In this document: positions 10,945 to 29,572 of the stretch, one piece after another
Layout: the number at the start of each line of letters is the position of its first letter
How positions within the stretch are numbered: the stretch's first letter is position 1
Assembly: GCA_028287235.1 (NCBI GenBank)
Contig: JAQBQB010000030.1
Location: forward strand, 434,001 to 498,000
DNA from: Gemmatimonadota bacterium
GTDB taxonomy: Bacteria > Gemmatimonadota > Gemmatimonadetes > Gemmatimonadales > Gemmatimonadaceae
Reading direction: 5' to 3'
DNA length: 64,000 nt
Notes under the pieces: model-generated
Database searches by the model: none
The model's input: only the letters and a program-made list of their open reading frames with translations
Told to the model about the DNA's origin: nothing
Program-made: the position numbers and the translations under genes

Positions 10945-11232
10945 ATGCGACAGAAACTGTCCGACCTGGAAATTCAGCGCGCGCTCGGCTCACTCGCCGG
11001 ATGGTCGCGCCGTGGTGAGACGTTGGTCAAGACCTACACCTTCGAAAAATTCGCGGACGGCATCGCCTTCGTCGATCGCGTGGCCGTCGCCGCCGACGCG
11101 ATGGACCACCATCCCGACATCGACATCCGCTACACCAAGATCGCGATCGCGCTGTCGACGCACGACGCGGGTGGGATCACGCAGTCGGATCTCACGCTGG
11201 CGGAGAAGATCGAAAAAGCATTGTCATCCTGA
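10945..11232 (+). CDS. phhB: 4a-hydroxytetrahydrobiopterin dehydratase (PCD/DCoH)
   Basis: The 95-residue product is of normal size for pterin-4a-carbinolamine dehydratase, which regenerates tetrahydrobiopterin after aromatic hydroxylation. The active-site region MDHHPDIDIRY and the strand KIAIALSTHDAGGIT are intact. Oddity: its last codons TTG TCA TCC TGA are the first bases of a dispersed repeat that follows. Confidence 0.94.
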   Translation: MRQKLSDLEIQRALGSLAGWSRRGETLVKTYTFEKFADGIAFVDRVAVAADAMDHHPDIDIRYTKIAIALSTHDAGGITQSDLTLAEKIEKALSS

Positions 11233-11341
11233 GCGCACCGTCATCCTGAGCGCGCTGTCATCCTGAGCGCGCTGTCATCCTGAGCGCAGCGAAGGATCGC
11301 TGTCCTCGGTACGAGATCCTTCGCTCCGCTCACGATGACAG
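11222..11341. repeat. Dispersed repeat cluster, four direct units and a large hairpin
   Basis: TCATCCTGAGCGC occurs four times at about 17-20 nt spacing; the last unit continues as GCAGCGAAGGATC and is followed by the inverted copy GATCCTTCGCTCCGCTCACG ATGACA. The inverted copies can fold into a hairpin of about 20 bp between the convergent phhB and PIG-L genes and may work as a bidirectional terminator. Both genes end inside it. Confidence 0.8.
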
Positions 11342-23474: not shown

Positions 23475-26400
23475 CTACCGCCCCGCGACCGACCCGTTGT
23501 CCCCCATTGTCGACGAGCGCAGAAACTCGAGCACGCGCCGGTCGAGGAAGTTCGAGATCTGCAACGGCAGCCGGCGGCGTTGCGAGGCCGTCAAGAGACC
23601 GTTCGCGTGGGGCACGAGCGTGAGCAGGTAGTCCACGGTGCGCTCTCGCGCCGAAACGTACCGGCCGTAGGCGTCCCCATGGTTGTAGCCGGCGGGGAGC
23701 GCGGCGAAATACGTTGCCACCGGCGTCCAGACCGAATCGGCGAACACCGAGAACTTGTGACTGAGATTTGCCAGGCTGTCGGCCTGCACGCGGTTCAGCT
23801 CCAGCTCGTGCTCCTGCGACAGCAGCATCGCCATCGGATTCGGGATCGCGCTCGTGCCGAGCGATTTCATGGTCTCCGTGTTCGCGCGGTCGCCGGCGCG
23901 CCCGCGTCCCGCGTCGAGTCGCTGCGTGAGCAGCTGTCGCTCGCGCGGAACGCCCACGTCGAGGCTCACGCTGAGGCTGACGTAGGGCAGCGTATGTGTC
24001 GCCGACTCGCTTGGCCGCGTCGACCCGAAACGCTGGTTCACCTCGTACTTGAACTCGCGCGTCGCAGCGTCGAAGCCGCGGACGAAGAGGAGATTCTGAT
24101 CGGGGGCGATGTTCTGTCCCCACCCGCGCACGCCGTTGGCGCCGTGCAGCGCAAGATCGGCGAGACCGAGCGGGTTCAACACCTGTAGACTCACGGTCGC
24201 GCGCTTTGGCAGGCCGATCTTTCGCGGGTTGAACTTGATGGCGATCACGTTGTTCGCCGTCCATGGCGCCTGACAGCTTCCGCGGTCCGCGAGGTGATTG
24301 AATTGACCCGCCAGGCACGCGCGCGCCGACGATGATCCGTTCGCGAGGAGCGACCGCATTGCCGCGGCCGCGGCGGCATCGGCCGTCGTGGCCGGGTCGG
24401 GAATGAACGCCCGATCGTTAGCCGCGCCGTCGCCGTTCACGTCGGTCGCGATCATCGGTGTGTACTTCTGGCCCGACGCCAGAACAACCGCGGCCGTGAC
24501 GTACACGACGTCGAAGATGGGGAAATCGCTCCAGCGGACGCTCAGCGCGTGTCGCGACGTCTGTAGATGCGGCCCCCATTGCGTGTCGAACGGATCGCCC
24601 GCCGTGCTCGTAAATCCGAAATACTGTTCGCGCACGTCGAGCAGCGTGTACGTCGCATCCCACCGCAGCTTCGCGTTCGCCGTGACCGGCTTGACGTTGA
24701 CGGTGAGCTGGCGAGAGCGCGTGGCGAGATCCGACCGCTGCACCCAGACACTCTGGAAGTCCGGCGAGACGCGGCTGGCGCCCGCGCCGATGCTGCCGGT
24801 GCCGACGACGATGGAACCTGGGTCGGCGAAGACTGGCCGCCCGGCTTCCTTCGGCAGCGTGAAGCGGGGTGTACGCTGCACGTTGACGTCCACGGCTCCC
24901 TGCTGGTCCAGTCCCGACGACACGATGCCCTGCACTCCGAGCACGAACCGATTGTCGAGTACCGGACCGGACCAATCTCCCGCCGCGCGGACCGACCGCG
25001 GTTGTCTGAAACGCGAATCGAACAACGACACGCTCGGCGCTCCGGTCCCGAGCGCAGTGCTCGCGGCGCCGCCGGCACACTCCGCCGGGATCGATCCCGG
25101 ATCCGTCAGGAACGAATCCCAGCGCGGAAACGGCACCGCGGCGCCCACGCAGGCGATCGACTGCGTCGAAGCGGGCAACCCGGTCGCGCTCATGCTCGGC
25201 GCCACGAACAGCGCCGGCGCGATGTTCTGAAAGACTCCCACGCCGGCGTGAATGACCGCTTGCGGCGGCCGCGCCGAGCCGGGGGCATAAGCAATTTGTG
25301 ATGACTGGCCGTAGGCCCACTGCACGCCGAGGCGCGGACTCACGTACGCCCGATCGGGCAGGCGGTCGTTGCGGAGGCCGAACGTAGCGCTGACCGCCGG
25401 GTTGAACGCGGGCTCCGTCAAGAACCTGTTGGCGTCGACGCGCGCGCCGTATTGCACCTGCACGCTCGGGGAGGGACGCCAGTAGTCGCCGAGCGCCATG
25501 CTGCCGGCGAGCTGGTGGCCCGATTGTGCCGCCGACGAGAGCGTTCGCGCAAAGCTCGCCGGCGTTCCCGCCGCGAGATCGGTGAGCGAGTTGAACGTGT
25601 ACGATCCGAACAGGCGTTGGCCCACGTCGCTCGTGAATGCGTCGTGAGCGAGGCTGGATGTCAGACGGATGGTGTGCGCGTTGTCGAGACTGTACCAGCT
25701 CAACTGGTTGTTGATCTGCACGGTCTGGTTCGCCGACGACGAGCGCAACGCGTTCCCACCGAAGGACAAGGACTTCACCGACGACCCTCCGCCGGGAAGC
25801 AGCGACGTCACTCGGACGATTCCTTCGGGGATCTGCTCGAATGGGTCGGTGGCAATCGCCTGCGCAGCGAGACCCACGGTTGTCTTCGACAGGACGCCAA
25901 ACCAGAAATAGTTCATGTGCACGAGCGAGGCATTGGCTCCCCAGAAGCTGGTCGCGTCGGAGTGACTTGGCGTCGAGAAGAGCAGGCCGGAGCGGTCCAC
26001 GGGTTGCGAGCGCTGATAGTTCCCCGCGATGCCAAACGTGAACGAGTGGCCGGTGCCCGACGCGCTCGGCATGACGTCGAAGTTGATCAGGCCTTGCACG
26101 ATGTCCTGCGACTGAACGCCCGGTGTGCCACCGACACTCAGCGGGATGCGCTGCTGCCCGAGAATGTTCACGAGGCGCGCGACCGAATCCGCGGACACGC
26201 CTGCCGCCGTGAGACCCAGCGCGTTCGCGTTGAGAAGCGATTGCGTGTCGTTGAACCGCCGGCCGACGTTGTACGCCGCGTTGTAGAAGATCTCGTCCAT
26301 CGTGATTGGCCCGGCGGCGTTTCCGCCGATGCGCGCGTTGGTGTACTTCTGTCCCTGCGCGGCGGCGGTCGCGTCGGCCCACTCGAGCGGCGGCGTGATG

Positions 26401-27134
26401 TCGGCGTTGGTGACCGAGCGGCGCGAGAAGTTTGACCCCGGAATGGTCTGGATCGAGATCTGCGCGCCGCTGAATCCTCCTTTCGACACGTCGAACGGGT
26501 AGGGATTGATCGACGTCGTGGCCAACACGTCGGGAGGCAGCGCGCTGATGCCGGAGCCGAGTCCGTTGAACGTGACGTTGTTCTGATCGCCGGACAGTCC
26601 GAGCACCGAGTACATGTCGGGCGCTCCGCCGAGCCCTGGGATCAATTGAAAGCCGGCGACTGCCGCGGCCATTGCCGCGAGATTTCCGGCCTGGTCGGTG
26701 GGCAGGCCGTTGTTGCCGAGCGGACGATCCCCACCGCCTACGTCCGCCGCGGCGCCGTTGCGATTCGGCAGCGCGCGATTGCGCTCACCCACCGTCGTCA
26801 CGGCGTCGAGCGCCGCGATGGTGGACGACAACCGCGCGTCGGCGAGCATCACTTCTTCGTCGCCGACTTTCCTGATCTCGAACCGCTTGGGCGCGAAACC
26901 GAGCTTCCTGAAGGCGAGCCAGTAGTCGCCCTCGCCGTTGATGAAGATGATCGTGAACCGTCCACTCTTGTCCGTGGTCGCCGTCTTGGTGACCTGGCCT
27001 TGGTACGAGGTCGCCCTGACTTCGACGCCCTGCACCGGATGGGCGTCCGGGTCGGTCACACGTCCGCGAATGACGTCTGTGGATACTTGAGCGGATGCTT
27101 TCGTCGCCACCACAAGGATGACGACCGCCGTCAT
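23475..27134 (-). CDS. TonB-dependent-receptor-like protein with carboxypeptidase-regulatory domain
   Basis: About 1219 residues. Signal peptide TAVVILVVATKASAQ, then a CarboxypepD_reg (DUF4480-like) domain (VIRGRVTDPDAHPVQGVEVR ATSYQGQ), a plug-like region (GNNGLPTDQAGNLAAMAAAV; SVLGLSGDQNNVTFNGLGSG) and a long beta-rich barrel, as in the Bacteroidota/Acidobacteriota/Gemmatimonadota OAR-like receptors. The last about 120 residues are helical (LLSQEHELELNRVQADSLAN). The ATG at 27134 is used; the frame continues upstream through dispersed-repeat DNA, and the start codon itself is part of a repeat unit. Substrate unknown. Confidence 0.87.
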   Translation of the reverse strand: MTAVVILVVATKASAQVSTDVIRGRVTDPDAHPVQGVEVRATSYQGQVTKTATTDKSGRFTIIFINGEGDYWLAFRKLGFAPKRFEIRKVGDEEVMLADARLSSTIAALDAVTTVGERNRALPNRNGAAADVGGGDRPLGNNGLPTDQAGNLAAMAAAVAGFQLIPGLGGAPDMYSVLGLSGDQNNVTFNGLGSGISALPPDVLATTSINPYPFDVSKGGFSGAQISIQTIPGSNFSRRSVTNADITPPLEWADATAAAQGQKYTNARIGGNAAGPITMDEIFYNAAYNVGRRFNDTQSLLNANALGLTAAGVSADSVARLVNILGQQRIPLSVGGTPGVQSQDIVQGLINFDVMPSASGTGHSFTFGIAGNYQRSQPVDRSGLLFSTPSHSDATSFWGANASLVHMNYFWFGVLSKTTVGLAAQAIATDPFEQIPEGIVRVTSLLPGGGSSVKSLSFGGNALRSSSANQTVQINNQLSWYSLDNAHTIRLTSSLAHDAFTSDVGQRLFGSYTFNSLTDLAAGTPASFARTLSSAAQSGHQLAGSMALGDYWRPSPSVQVQYGARVDANRFLTEPAFNPAVSATFGLRNDRLPDRAYVSPRLGVQWAYGQSSQIAYAPGSARPPQAVIHAGVGVFQNIAPALFVAPSMSATGLPASTQSIACVGAAVPFPRWDSFLTDPGSIPAECAGGAASTALGTGAPSVSLFDSRFRQPRSVRAAGDWSGPVLDNRFVLGVQGIVSSGLDQQGAVDVNVQRTPRFTLPKEAGRPVFADPGSIVVGTGSIGAGASRVSPDFQSVWVQRSDLATRSRQLTVNVKPVTANAKLRWDATYTLLDVREQYFGFTSTAGDPFDTQWGPHLQTSRHALSVRWSDFPIFDVVYVTAAVVLASGQKYTPMIATDVNGDGAANDRAFIPDPATTADAAAAAAMRSLLANGSSSARACLAGQFNHLADRGSCQAPWTANNVIAIKFNPRKIGLPKRATVSLQVLNPLGLADLALHGANGVRGWGQNIAPDQNLLFVRGFDAATREFKYEVNQRFGSTRPSESATHTLPYVSLSVSLDVGVPRERQLLTQRLDAGRGRAGDRANTETMKSLGTSAIPNPMAMLLSQEHELELNRVQADSLANLSHKFSVFADSVWTPVATYFAALPAGYNHGDAYGRYVSARERTVDYLLTLVPHANGLLTASQRRRLPLQISNFLDRRVLEFLRSSTMGDNGSVAGR

Positions 27135-27215
27135 CCTGAGGAGCCCTCCTTTTGTCATCCTGAGGAGCCCTCCTCTTGTCATCCTGAGGAGCGAAGTGAC
27201 GAAGGATCTCTTCCA
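27113..27215. repeat. Dispersed repeat, three tandem units at the receptor start
   Basis: GTCATCCTGAGGAGCCCTCC followed by TTTT or TCTT occurs twice in tandem and a third unit continues as GTCATCCTGAGGAGCGAAGT GACGAAGGATC. Each unit, read on the minus strand, carries AGGAGGGC and an ATGAC; the innermost ATG is the start codon of the TonB-type receptor and AGGAGG its likely ribosome-binding site. Confidence 0.8.
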
Positions 27216-27263
27216 CCCACCCCCTACACGCCTATCGGCTCCCTTCGCCCGGAATGACATGCG

Positions 27264-29045
27264 TTACTTCTGAATCTTCGCGCGCTCGAGATAGAACCCG
27301 TTCGTCCGGTCGCCGGCCTGCAGGTACACGACACCGCCCTTGCCGAATCCGGCGATCGAGCGGCCGAGCGGCATGCGCACGCGCTCGAACAATCCCTTTT
27401 TCGGATTGACGACGTCGTACACCAACTCTCCGTGTTGTGACTGCGCCGACGTGGTCGGCAGAATCCACAGGTTGCCGTCGGCATCGGGCATCGATGCGTT
27501 GCGATGGATCGGAGGGTAGTAGTCCGGAATCTCCGACAGCGGAACGAACTCCATGCGTTGGATGCTGCCCTGCTGGCCGGAAGCCGGATCGGCGCCGCCT
27601 CCGGAGCGGGCGCGGCCCGCGGCGTCGCTGCCAACGTCAGCTCGGTTGGGAGTCGTGGGCCCAGCGTACCGCTTGTTCCTGATGCTCATCAGCGAGTCGT
27701 ACACGACCCGCGCCGAGTCGACGAGCTTCTGCTTGTCCTCGTCGGTGAGCCGCTTCCAGTCGAATGCGAGCTTTTCGGTCGAGCTCTTCGTGCCGTCGGG
27801 GAATATCCAGTCGACGTGATAGTCACGCCCGCGCACGAACGCGACGGTTCCATCGGACAGCACGGACCAGGAGTCTTCGGTCGGCACCGGCTGAATGATC
27901 GAGGTGACGACGCGTTTTCCGTTTTCCGGCGGGTCGGATCTATTCGCGCTTCCCGCCGTGTGCTTCGCGCCGATCACGTCGACCTGGCGCGAATCGAGAT
28001 CGGCGCGGAGGATCAGCGTCGAGTCGGCCACCCGCGCAACGTGCGTCACCGGATCGCCGCGGACGCTGAACCCGCTCTCGGTGAGCAGGCGTCCCTTGCT
28101 GTCGGCTGCGTGCGGCATGGGGAAGTTCCGCGCGAACGGCGTCACGCCGTCCTGAAAGGTCGGGAGCGCGAGCGCGCGGGCGACCTGTCCGTTGCGATCG
28201 AGCACGAGCACCGTGCTCTCGGCGTTGTTGGAGAAGAGCGTCGAGTCGGCGAGGTACGGCGTGATGGTCGACGGCGTCGCGAAGTAGCTCGACGACGAAC
28301 CTGCCGCCGAGTCGATGGGCACGGTCGCGTTGGCGAGCGTGGAGTCGTAGATCCTGATCTGACGCCGGCCCGCGTCGTTCACGAGCAGGCGGCCGCCAGG
28401 AAGCTCCCGAACACCGAGCACGGCGCCGAGCGTCGTGGCGGTTCTCGCCGCGGTGGTCGCCAGGCTGACGACGGGAATGCCCTGCTGCGCGGGCGCGCTT
28501 TGGGGCGCGAGCGACGCCGCGCCGCACGTGAGCGCGGCGATGGCGGTCCGCATCGGAAACGCCCGCAGGATCGTGAAGCCCGACGGCGTTGCCGGCGCGT
28601 TCGCGCCGTTCGCCTCGAGATCGAATTCGACTCGTGAGACGTTTGCTTCCATGCTGTCCACCTCCGCTTTGGCGAGTTGAAGTGAGGCCGGAGTGGCCGA
28701 GCCGGCATCGACCTCGTGCCGCACCGTTTCGTAGTTCGATCGTGCCAGGTCGAGCCGCAGCTGGGCGAGCTGGCGCTTCGTCGCGAGGTTCGTGGCCGCC
28801 ACTTCGCGTTGCCGCGCGTCGAGCACTTCGGCTGATGCGTATCCGGTGCTCGCGCCGAGCACGAGCCCGATGGTGAGCGTGACGACGGCGCCGGCGGCGA
28901 TGCCCATCACCAAGCCGAGCCGGCGAGCTCGCGCGGAGCGCGGCGTCTCGAACTGGCGGTCGGCGCGATAGGCGCGGCGCACCTCGTGTTTGAGCGACGC
29001 CAGAAACTCCGGCGTGGGCGTGTGCGGGTCGTTGAAGTCGTTCAT
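27264..29045 (-). CDS. Membrane protein fused to a secreted beta-propeller-like domain, sigma-linked
   Basis: The 593-residue product overlaps the preceding ECF sigma gene by 4 nt (ATGA). Residues 1-45 are cytoplasmic and basic, 46-70 a membrane helix (LGLVMGIAAGAVVTLTIGLV), 72-145 a coiled-coil resembling TolC-type heptads. Residues 165-188 (MRTAIAALTCGAASLAPQSA PAQQ) look like a second, complete signal peptide in mid-protein, followed by a repeated-strand region resembling an NHL/6-bladed propeller (GAVLGVRELPGGRLLVNDAG RRQIRIYD). The N-terminal part is in the place of an anti-sigma factor but shows no zinc motif. Confidence 0.75.
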   Translation of the reverse strand: MNDFNDPHTPTPEFLASLKHEVRRAYRADRQFETPRSARARRLGLVMGIAAGAVVTLTIGLVLGASTGYASAEVLDARQREVAATNLATKRQLAQLRLDLARSNYETVRHEVDAGSATPASLQLAKAEVDSMEANVSRVEFDLEANGANAPATPSGFTILRAFPMRTAIAALTCGAASLAPQSAPAQQGIPVVSLATTAARTATTLGAVLGVRELPGGRLLVNDAGRRQIRIYDSTLANATVPIDSAAGSSSSYFATPSTITPYLADSTLFSNNAESTVLVLDRNGQVARALALPTFQDGVTPFARNFPMPHAADSKGRLLTESGFSVRGDPVTHVARVADSTLILRADLDSRQVDVIGAKHTAGSANRSDPPENGKRVVTSIIQPVPTEDSWSVLSDGTVAFVRGRDYHVDWIFPDGTKSSTEKLAFDWKRLTDEDKQKLVDSARVVYDSLMSIRNKRYAGPTTPNRADVGSDAAGRARSGGGADPASGQQGSIQRMEFVPLSEIPDYYPPIHRNASMPDADGNLWILPTTSAQSQHGELVYDVVNPKKGLFERVRMPLGRSIAGFGKGGVVYLQAGDRTNGFYLERAKIQK

Positions 29046-29572
29046 GCGAGTCCTCGGTCCGTCTTCAGTGTGATCTCGAGCTCGCGCCGGAGCCGTTCGC
29101 GGGCGCGGCGGAGCCGTCCTTCGACCGCGCGCTCGGAGATTCCGTACACCTCGGCGAGTTGCGACATCTTCAATCGATCGTAGTGGAACGTCTCGAGCAG
29201 TCGTGCTTCGGCGTCCGGAATGCGCGCGAGCGCGTGGCCGACGAGCGACGCCACCTCCTCCGAGTCGCTGACCGCGTTCGCATCGACCGCGGCGAGCACC
29301 TCGGCGGCCGACATCAAGTCGAGCGGGACGCCCTCGCGCTTCCTGAAGTGGCTGACGATGAGATTGCGCGCGACGGTCGTGAGCCAGCCGATGGGGTTGT
29401 CGGGCGCTCCGTGCATGCGCCAATGGCGCAGCGCCCGCATCCACACCTCTTGCGTGACATCTTCGGCGAGCTCGCGCCGCCCCCCGCACCGTCTCGAGGC
29501 ATAGCCATAGAGCTCGGTGATGGTGTCATCGTAGATCCGTTCGAGCTCGGTTTCGGTGATGCTGTCGGCCAT
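29042..29572 (-). CDS. ECF RNA polymerase sigma factor
   Basis: The 176-residue product has region 2 (ELAEDVTQEVWMRALRHWRM, PIGWLTTVARNLIVSHFRKR) and region 4 (LLETFHYDRLKMSQLAEVYG, ISERAVEGRLRRARERLRRE). It is coupled to the membrane/beta-propeller gene by an ATGA overlap, suggesting that the latter's N-terminal part regulates it. Target genes are unknown; the TonB-type receptor downstream is a candidate. Confidence 0.93.
   Translation of the reverse strand: MADSITETELERIYDDTITELYGYASRRCGGRRELAEDVTQEVWMRALRHWRMHGAPDNPIGWLTTVARNLIVSHFRKREGVPLDLMSAAEVLAAVDANAVSDSEEVASLVGHALARIPDAEARLLETFHYDRLKMSQLAEVYGISERAVEGRLRRARERLRRELEITLKTDRGLA

Follow-up and report, generated by a model that had tools for sequence, protein, structure and literature searches.

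We found a palindromic interspersed repeat inside the reading frame of an outer-membrane-receptor-type gene of a Gemmatimonadaceae bacterium (genome G000, 5.73 Mb), at the front of its signal peptide. The repeat belongs to a genome-wide family, the frame is open through it, receptor orthologues in related genomes lack it, and similar layouts recur at other exported genes of G000. We consider it likely that a mobile-type palindrome entered the receptor gene in frame, behind the native start codon and ahead of the hydrophobic core of the signal peptide, that it then grew in tandem, and that it is translated from the native ATG (27260) as an extended n-region. The inner end of the inserted element would have been copied in 24-bp (8-codon) steps, and translation would most likely begin at this ATG, beside the stop codon of the upstream ORF, and run through the element. 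The Arg/Lys-rich residues encoded by the element would form a long basic n-region ahead of the native core, and the ATGs of the units would be possible additional starts, all feeding that one core. The choice of start, translation across the element and working export are our inference.

The features of this locus within the window –the whole stretch of 64,000 nucleotides that was analysed– are the following:

23475..27260, minus strand: outer-membrane-receptor-type ORF, with a CarboxypepD_reg domain at residues 64-130
27087..27131, minus strand: hydrophobic core and ASAQ cleavage-like site, TAVVILVVATKASAQ
27130..27192, minus strand: tandem array with a period of 24 bp, or 8 codons (TRF and exact matches)
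27130..27259, minus strand: palindromic interspersed element with its inner end tandemly copied, within the receptor frame (outer limit placed by eye)
27132..27134, minus strand: innermost ATG, the start chosen by the first-pass annotation; would give a 16-aa signal peptide with n-charge 0
27143..27150, minus strand: AGGAGGGC ahead of the innermost ATG
27156..27158, minus strand: middle-unit ATG; would give a 24-aa signal peptide with n-charge +2
27167..27174, minus strand: AGGAGGGC ahead of the middle ATG
27180..27182, minus strand: outer-unit ATG, preceded by the element core and without AGGAGGGC before it
27258..27260, minus strand: outermost in-frame ATG, favoured as start from orthologue comparison (TAACGC-ATG here, TAACG-ATG in G001)
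27264..29489, minus strand: upstream ORF, its stop codon 3 bases ahead of the outermost ATG
29042..29572, minus strand: ECF-type sigma factor ORF, overlapping the mechanical start of ORF 27264..29489

At the level of the array, TRF detected a 24-bp tandem unit at 27130-27192 (2.6 copies, 97% match), and GTCATCCTGAGGAGC occurs exactly at 27130, 27154, and 27178 on the plus strand, at a spacing of 24 bp. The array is made of two full 24-bp units; beyond them lies the core of a longer element reaching out towards 27259 (outer limit by eye). The inner end CTCAGGATGAC is present three times, next comes the core GAGATCCTTC, and the outer end TGTCATTCCGGGCGAAG adjoins the outermost ATG; the outer arm is diverged. 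On the minus strand, no stop interrupts the frame from 27260 through every unit into the 1261-aa ORF, and in-frame ATGs lie at 27260, 27182, 27158, and 27134. Thus, the tandem repeat that the first-pass annotation had described at the receptor 5' end is real, repeat DNA does form the 5' end of the gene in an open frame, and several start sites are possible, as it had proposed. It had also placed AGGAGGGC in each unit; we found this motif only at the two positions listed above, a count that is not above chance for the window (at least two in 36 of 100 shuffles). For GTCATCCTGAG, allowing up to one mismatch, the window holds 12 matches, against a mean of 1.09 and a largest value of 4 in shuffles. 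A second array of the same family lies at 11218-11288, with about four 17-bp units, a length not divisible by 3.

The units had been read as a device of the receptor gene. They are instead the end of a genome-wide palindromic element: the 11-mer GTCATCCTGAG has 356 matches in G000 and 2 for a reversed-pattern control. Within the genus, we counted 108 matches in G001, 163 in G003, 4 in G005, and 1 each in G002 and G004. Among 59 genomes of the family, five outside the genus had 132, 98, 72, 71, and 46 matches, another had 19, and the rest fewer than 10, so that the distribution across relatives is patchy. The idealised palindrome has the form TGTCATCCTGAGCGAAGCGAAGGATCT...AGATCCTTCGCTTCGCTCAGGATGACA, and the element ends are TGTCATCC...GGATGACA. 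The 20 copies taken from G065, G051, and G040 are palindromes with inverted arms and 66-142 bp between the outer 11-mers. Element copies carry terminal inverted repeats, as MITEs do, and no target-site duplication is evident by eye in these 20 copies, which come without a close empty-site pair at the DNA level. Tandem copying of element ends is frequent in G000, with a locus-specific unit length of 14-56 bp in a tally of spacings up to 61. One 68-nt query gave no PLSDB match that would indicate plasmid carriage. Element clusters seem far more crowded on C3 (18-56 kb) and C9 (140-280 kb), two contigs of G000, than on most of the contigs listed. In G065 (L089, L091, L097-L099, L101), the element is nested in a second, longer inverted repeat, ...ATAGTTATCAGGGA...TCCCTGATAACTAT...

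For the receptor itself, the TonB label is presumptive, because no plug or barrel model passed and a solved-structure search gave no match. The upstream ORF had no Pfam match; its 3' end has, by eye, a counterpart upstream of the two closest receptor orthologues. The ECF-type sigma factor ORF, the receptor and the ORF between them lie on the same strand, and a sigma/receptor operon is possible.

The receptor orthologues of G001 and G004 share 68% identity with it and have similar upstream gene ends (by eye), and no match to the element was found upstream of either. In G001, two bases separate the upstream gene's stop from the likely start (TAACG-ATG), after which comes MRRKWVYAAVFAAAARAACAQ. 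This likely native start corresponds in place to the outermost ATG of G000. From there to the AQ site we counted 58 codons in G000 and 21 in G001, hence 37 extra codons in G000, with a protein identity too distant for fixing the insertion edges. A wider comparison covered 20 loci, of which 3 without a readable site were dropped. In the 16 homologues with a readable site, the signal peptide has 21-34 residues and an n-charge of at least +1 when the start is chosen by eye, and several of them also offer shorter uncharged alternative starts.

Similar layouts were found elsewhere in G000, where the loci fetched comprised 110 clusters (332 of the 356 exact matches). We read 170 outward-reading element ends in three frames each, and a pass was an uncharged hydrophobic stretch starting within 10 residues and leading to an AXAQ-like site or a lipobox. 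Nine of the 170 ends passed in the LRMT frame, none of 170 in either of the other two, and 6 of 4053 far-control reads (150-450 bp away) did so. The Fisher p-values for this excess (4.4e-5 against the other frames, 9.2e-10 against far controls) are post hoc, because the test was designed after examples had been seen in G000. A looser criterion for the core gave 10/170 ends against 7/4053 controls, and other control distances gave nine in the LRMT frame against 5/4017 control reads. The passing genes encode the receptor, an M23 peptidase, a CarboxypepD/plug protein, a DUF4249-like lipoprotein (below Pfam's cut-off), a trypsin/PDZ lipoprotein, a sortilin-type protein, and an M28 peptidase/PDZ protein; two have no family name, one of which (L173) was outside the Pfam search. 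The by-eye cases L131, L135, L052, and L065 are left out of the nine. In eight of the nine the frame is open upstream through the detected cluster; at L173 it is open for 17 codons only, and therefore translation there would begin within the element.

Unit lengths were all divisible by 3 in 5 of the 5 signal-peptide clusters with arrays and in 18 of 60 others (p 0.004), and counting by array in 7/7 against 27/78 (p 0.001), a test that is also post hoc. This bias is not circular, because the class of each cluster was set from downstream sequence alone; any one unit length, such as the 24 bp of the receptor, keeps the frame by chance one time in three. A tally of ORF-spanning arrays (19/19 against 15/66 divisible by 3) was set aside as circular, because units not divisible by 3 tend to meet a stop.

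We ran the same test in other genomes, sampled in part (40, 40, 20, and 20 regions). The LRMT frame passed at 1/81 ends in G001 (Fisher against other frames 0.33; far controls 2/1695), 0/68 in G003 (Fisher 1; 11/1629), 1/25 in G014 (Fisher 0.56; 2/600), and 0/40 in G065, G051, and G040 together (Fisher 1; 1/480). The G001 count leaves out L182, reached via the orthologue search; with it, the count is 2/83. Passes in another frame were seen once each in G003, G014, and G051. With no significant excess outside G000, the enrichment is a G000 finding, supported elsewhere by single cases.

Apart from the receptor, an open frame runs through the element into unrelated genes, for an amidohydrolase, lipoproteins, peptidases, a PAP2 protein, and a glycosyltransferase, and orthologues without the element were found for four genes, the receptor included. 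The amidohydrolase (L131 in G000) has orthologues at 85-88% identity, and the element lies within its signal peptide in G000, G001, and G003 and is absent in G004. With the element in brackets, and with brackets and starts assigned by us, the leader reads MSPTV[CHPEGAKRPRDL...NRSFASLRMT]AASRRMTAAAGAVILLASTAHAQ in G001 and MSEFNNCYAW[CSHPERSEGS...RSLRFLGMT]AAFALAPIAASAQ in G003, where the element is diverged, lacks the exact 11-mer, and was recognised by eye; the leader without it is MTDRIGGRARCMALAALAAAALPAAAHAQ in G004. A Met (MRN, MSP, MSE) stands ahead of the element in all three carriers, and several other cases likewise keep one (by eye). For a DUF7790 lipoprotein, the G000 leader is MKLAAF[element]MLLAGC, and those of G001 and G004 are the uninterrupted MNVARLIVSIALLPLAAC and MNAARRIVSIALPFLTLTAC.

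The element was also found away from signal peptides. A PAP2-family gene on contig C9 of G000 (about 162.0-163.1 kb; L109, L178:2491-3588) carries an in-frame composite element with units of 30, 27, and 42 bp before the main domain, and a 60%-identical homologue in G005 is without it; tried as a case of a start within the repeat, this gene proved to hold an internal in-frame insertion. In an 868-codon ORF (L119:195-2798, plus strand), an in-frame array of the element with units of 21 and 24 bp is flanked on either side by Pfam matches to a family-2 glycosyltransferase.

Which start codon is used at the receptor separates two other accounts from a start at 27260. The first-pass annotation had taken the innermost ATG (27134), with the upstream units untranslated and their number tuning translation. 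AGGAGGGC and ATGAC are present there, and a good hydrophobic core and the ASAQ site follow; however, the signal peptide it had called clean is only 16 residues long and has no positive charge in the n-region. From the sequence, this ATG looks the least likely start, because its signal peptide is an outlier among the homologues, its codon is predicted paired, and the likely start of the closest orthologue falls at 27260. Unit lengths that keep the frame at signal-peptide sites also argue against untranslated units, and we regard this account as improbable. A second option is that the element supplies the start, most plausibly the middle ATG (27158). This start would yield MTKGGLLRMTAVVILVVATKASAQ, and AGGAGGG would be its ribosome-binding site. 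Its signal peptide is typical of the homologues in length and charge, and AGGAGGGC stands ahead of it. In the predicted folding, the unpaired fraction was 0.96-0.97 for the middle start codon, 0.00 for the innermost, and 0.65-0.78 for the outermost. Both AGGAGG sites were predicted mostly paired (0.14-0.21 unpaired; 0.14-0.17 at the middle ATG), and AGGAGG ends 10 nt ahead of the middle ATG (by inspection), which count against this option. This folding evidence on starts is weak, because the receptor 5' region does not exceed shuffles in stability (z -1.38); no Rfam match was found in 26800-27600 up to E 1. The proposal that the repeat supplies ribosome-binding sites loses ground on the same data, with AGGAGGGC missing before one unit ATG and predicted mostly paired elsewhere. 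A likely native start is kept upstream in frame, and in several other cases, too, a Met precedes the element (by eye); a start at the middle ATG seems unlikely to us, if worth keeping in view.

The repeat could also be a chance neighbour, intergenic and beside the gene, its frame being open because the element is GC-rich and poor in stops. In line with this, ORFs of at least 200 aa in an early sample of 42 ends were found at 7/42 in the ATG frame and 5/42 in the usable control frame; ORFs of at least 100 aa numbered 13 in either frame. On this sample we rejected a general rule that genes start at repeat ATGs, as long ORFs were not enriched in the ATG frame. The lack of a significant signal-peptide excess in the other genomes fits a chance neighbour as well. 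The frame and place specificity at G000 signal peptides, the unit-length bias and the three-species amidohydrolase case all speak against it, and we judge it unlikely. Regarding its spread, a short palindromic interspersed repeat with hundreds of copies resembles REP sequences, which would imply mobilisation by a RAYT (Y1) transposase. PF01797 (RAYT, Y1 transposase) had no match in G000, G003, G014, G040, G045, G051, and G065, the genomes with at least 46 element matches in the family survey (G001 being outside it), though G013, with 19 element matches, had two. A further difference from REP elements lies in the ends, here GTCATCC...GGATGAC. Mobilisation by a RAYT is, in our view, very improbable.

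We return to the in-frame insertion read as an extended n-region. In one frame, the element arm encodes (I)LRSLRSLRMT, and a precursor translated through the element would contain ...LLRMTKGGLLRMT... The repeat is probably of the protein-coding palindromic type and probably became the n-region of signal peptides repeatedly in G000. Export signals may in this way have gained their front end from stray repeat DNA, given the similar layouts at several exported proteins that are unrelated to each other. More tentatively, and with more doubt than belief, signal peptides might be a niche for the family. Because the arm encodes a ready-made basic n-region, insertions at the n/h border would be tolerated or useful; they would persist across species and grow by whole codons, giving length-variable n-regions that could tune export or synthesis. 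We also considered the receptor hydrophobic core as an inverted element copy, since the array leads into GTCATCCT. This found no support, as 181 of the 4336 background segments in the window reach as high a score.

Two reviews (PMC10969869, PMC2229807), as far as their excerpts go, describe in-frame palindromic repeats in unrelated genes above all for Rickettsia. There, the Rickettsia palindromic elements (RPE) are about 100-150 bp long, present in many copies and in frame in genes unrelated to each other, with translation in at least one instance; Wolbachia protein-coding palindromes are named there by a reference title only. The likeness to ours is claimed at the level of kind: multi-copy palindromes in frame in unrelated genes. 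What differs is the recurrent site in G000 –the border between n-region and h-region of signal peptides–, the tandemly copied ends, and the Gemmatimonadaceae host. In an excerpt on Yersinia, the MITE RU-2/YPAL forms part of the signal peptide predicted for YPO1552, a putative exported protein (PMC2229807). There, the emphasis is on a hydrophobic cluster of the element and on one locus, whereas here a basic arm stands before native cores in several unrelated genes. The same paper presents Correia/NEMIS and other MITEs as non-autonomous inverted-repeat elements with ORFs that can fuse to host ORFs (PMC2229807); in contrast, neither TA ends nor target duplications were seen by eye in our 20 copies. 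Searches of the open-access literature found no element peptides, and for the repeat sequence strings, the titles among the matches listed point to unrelated work. Within that literature, such recurrent placement of a repeat at the front of signal peptides has apparently not been described before.

These findings place a repeat in frame, repeatedly, at the same functional site in one Gemmatimonadaceae genome, the front of signal peptides, with one such case in three species and tandem growth that keeps the frame. If the element is translated, these genes would be a natural series for how selfish DNA becomes protein. They would also bear on the extent of n-region change that is tolerated by the export machinery, and on whether export varies with repeat number. 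For annotation, start codons picked inside such repeats may be wrong.

Finally, two element clusters in L066, at about 8740 and 14664, each precede a near-identical gene start (MISL-TGGAGF), and perhaps represent duplicated genes carrying the element.
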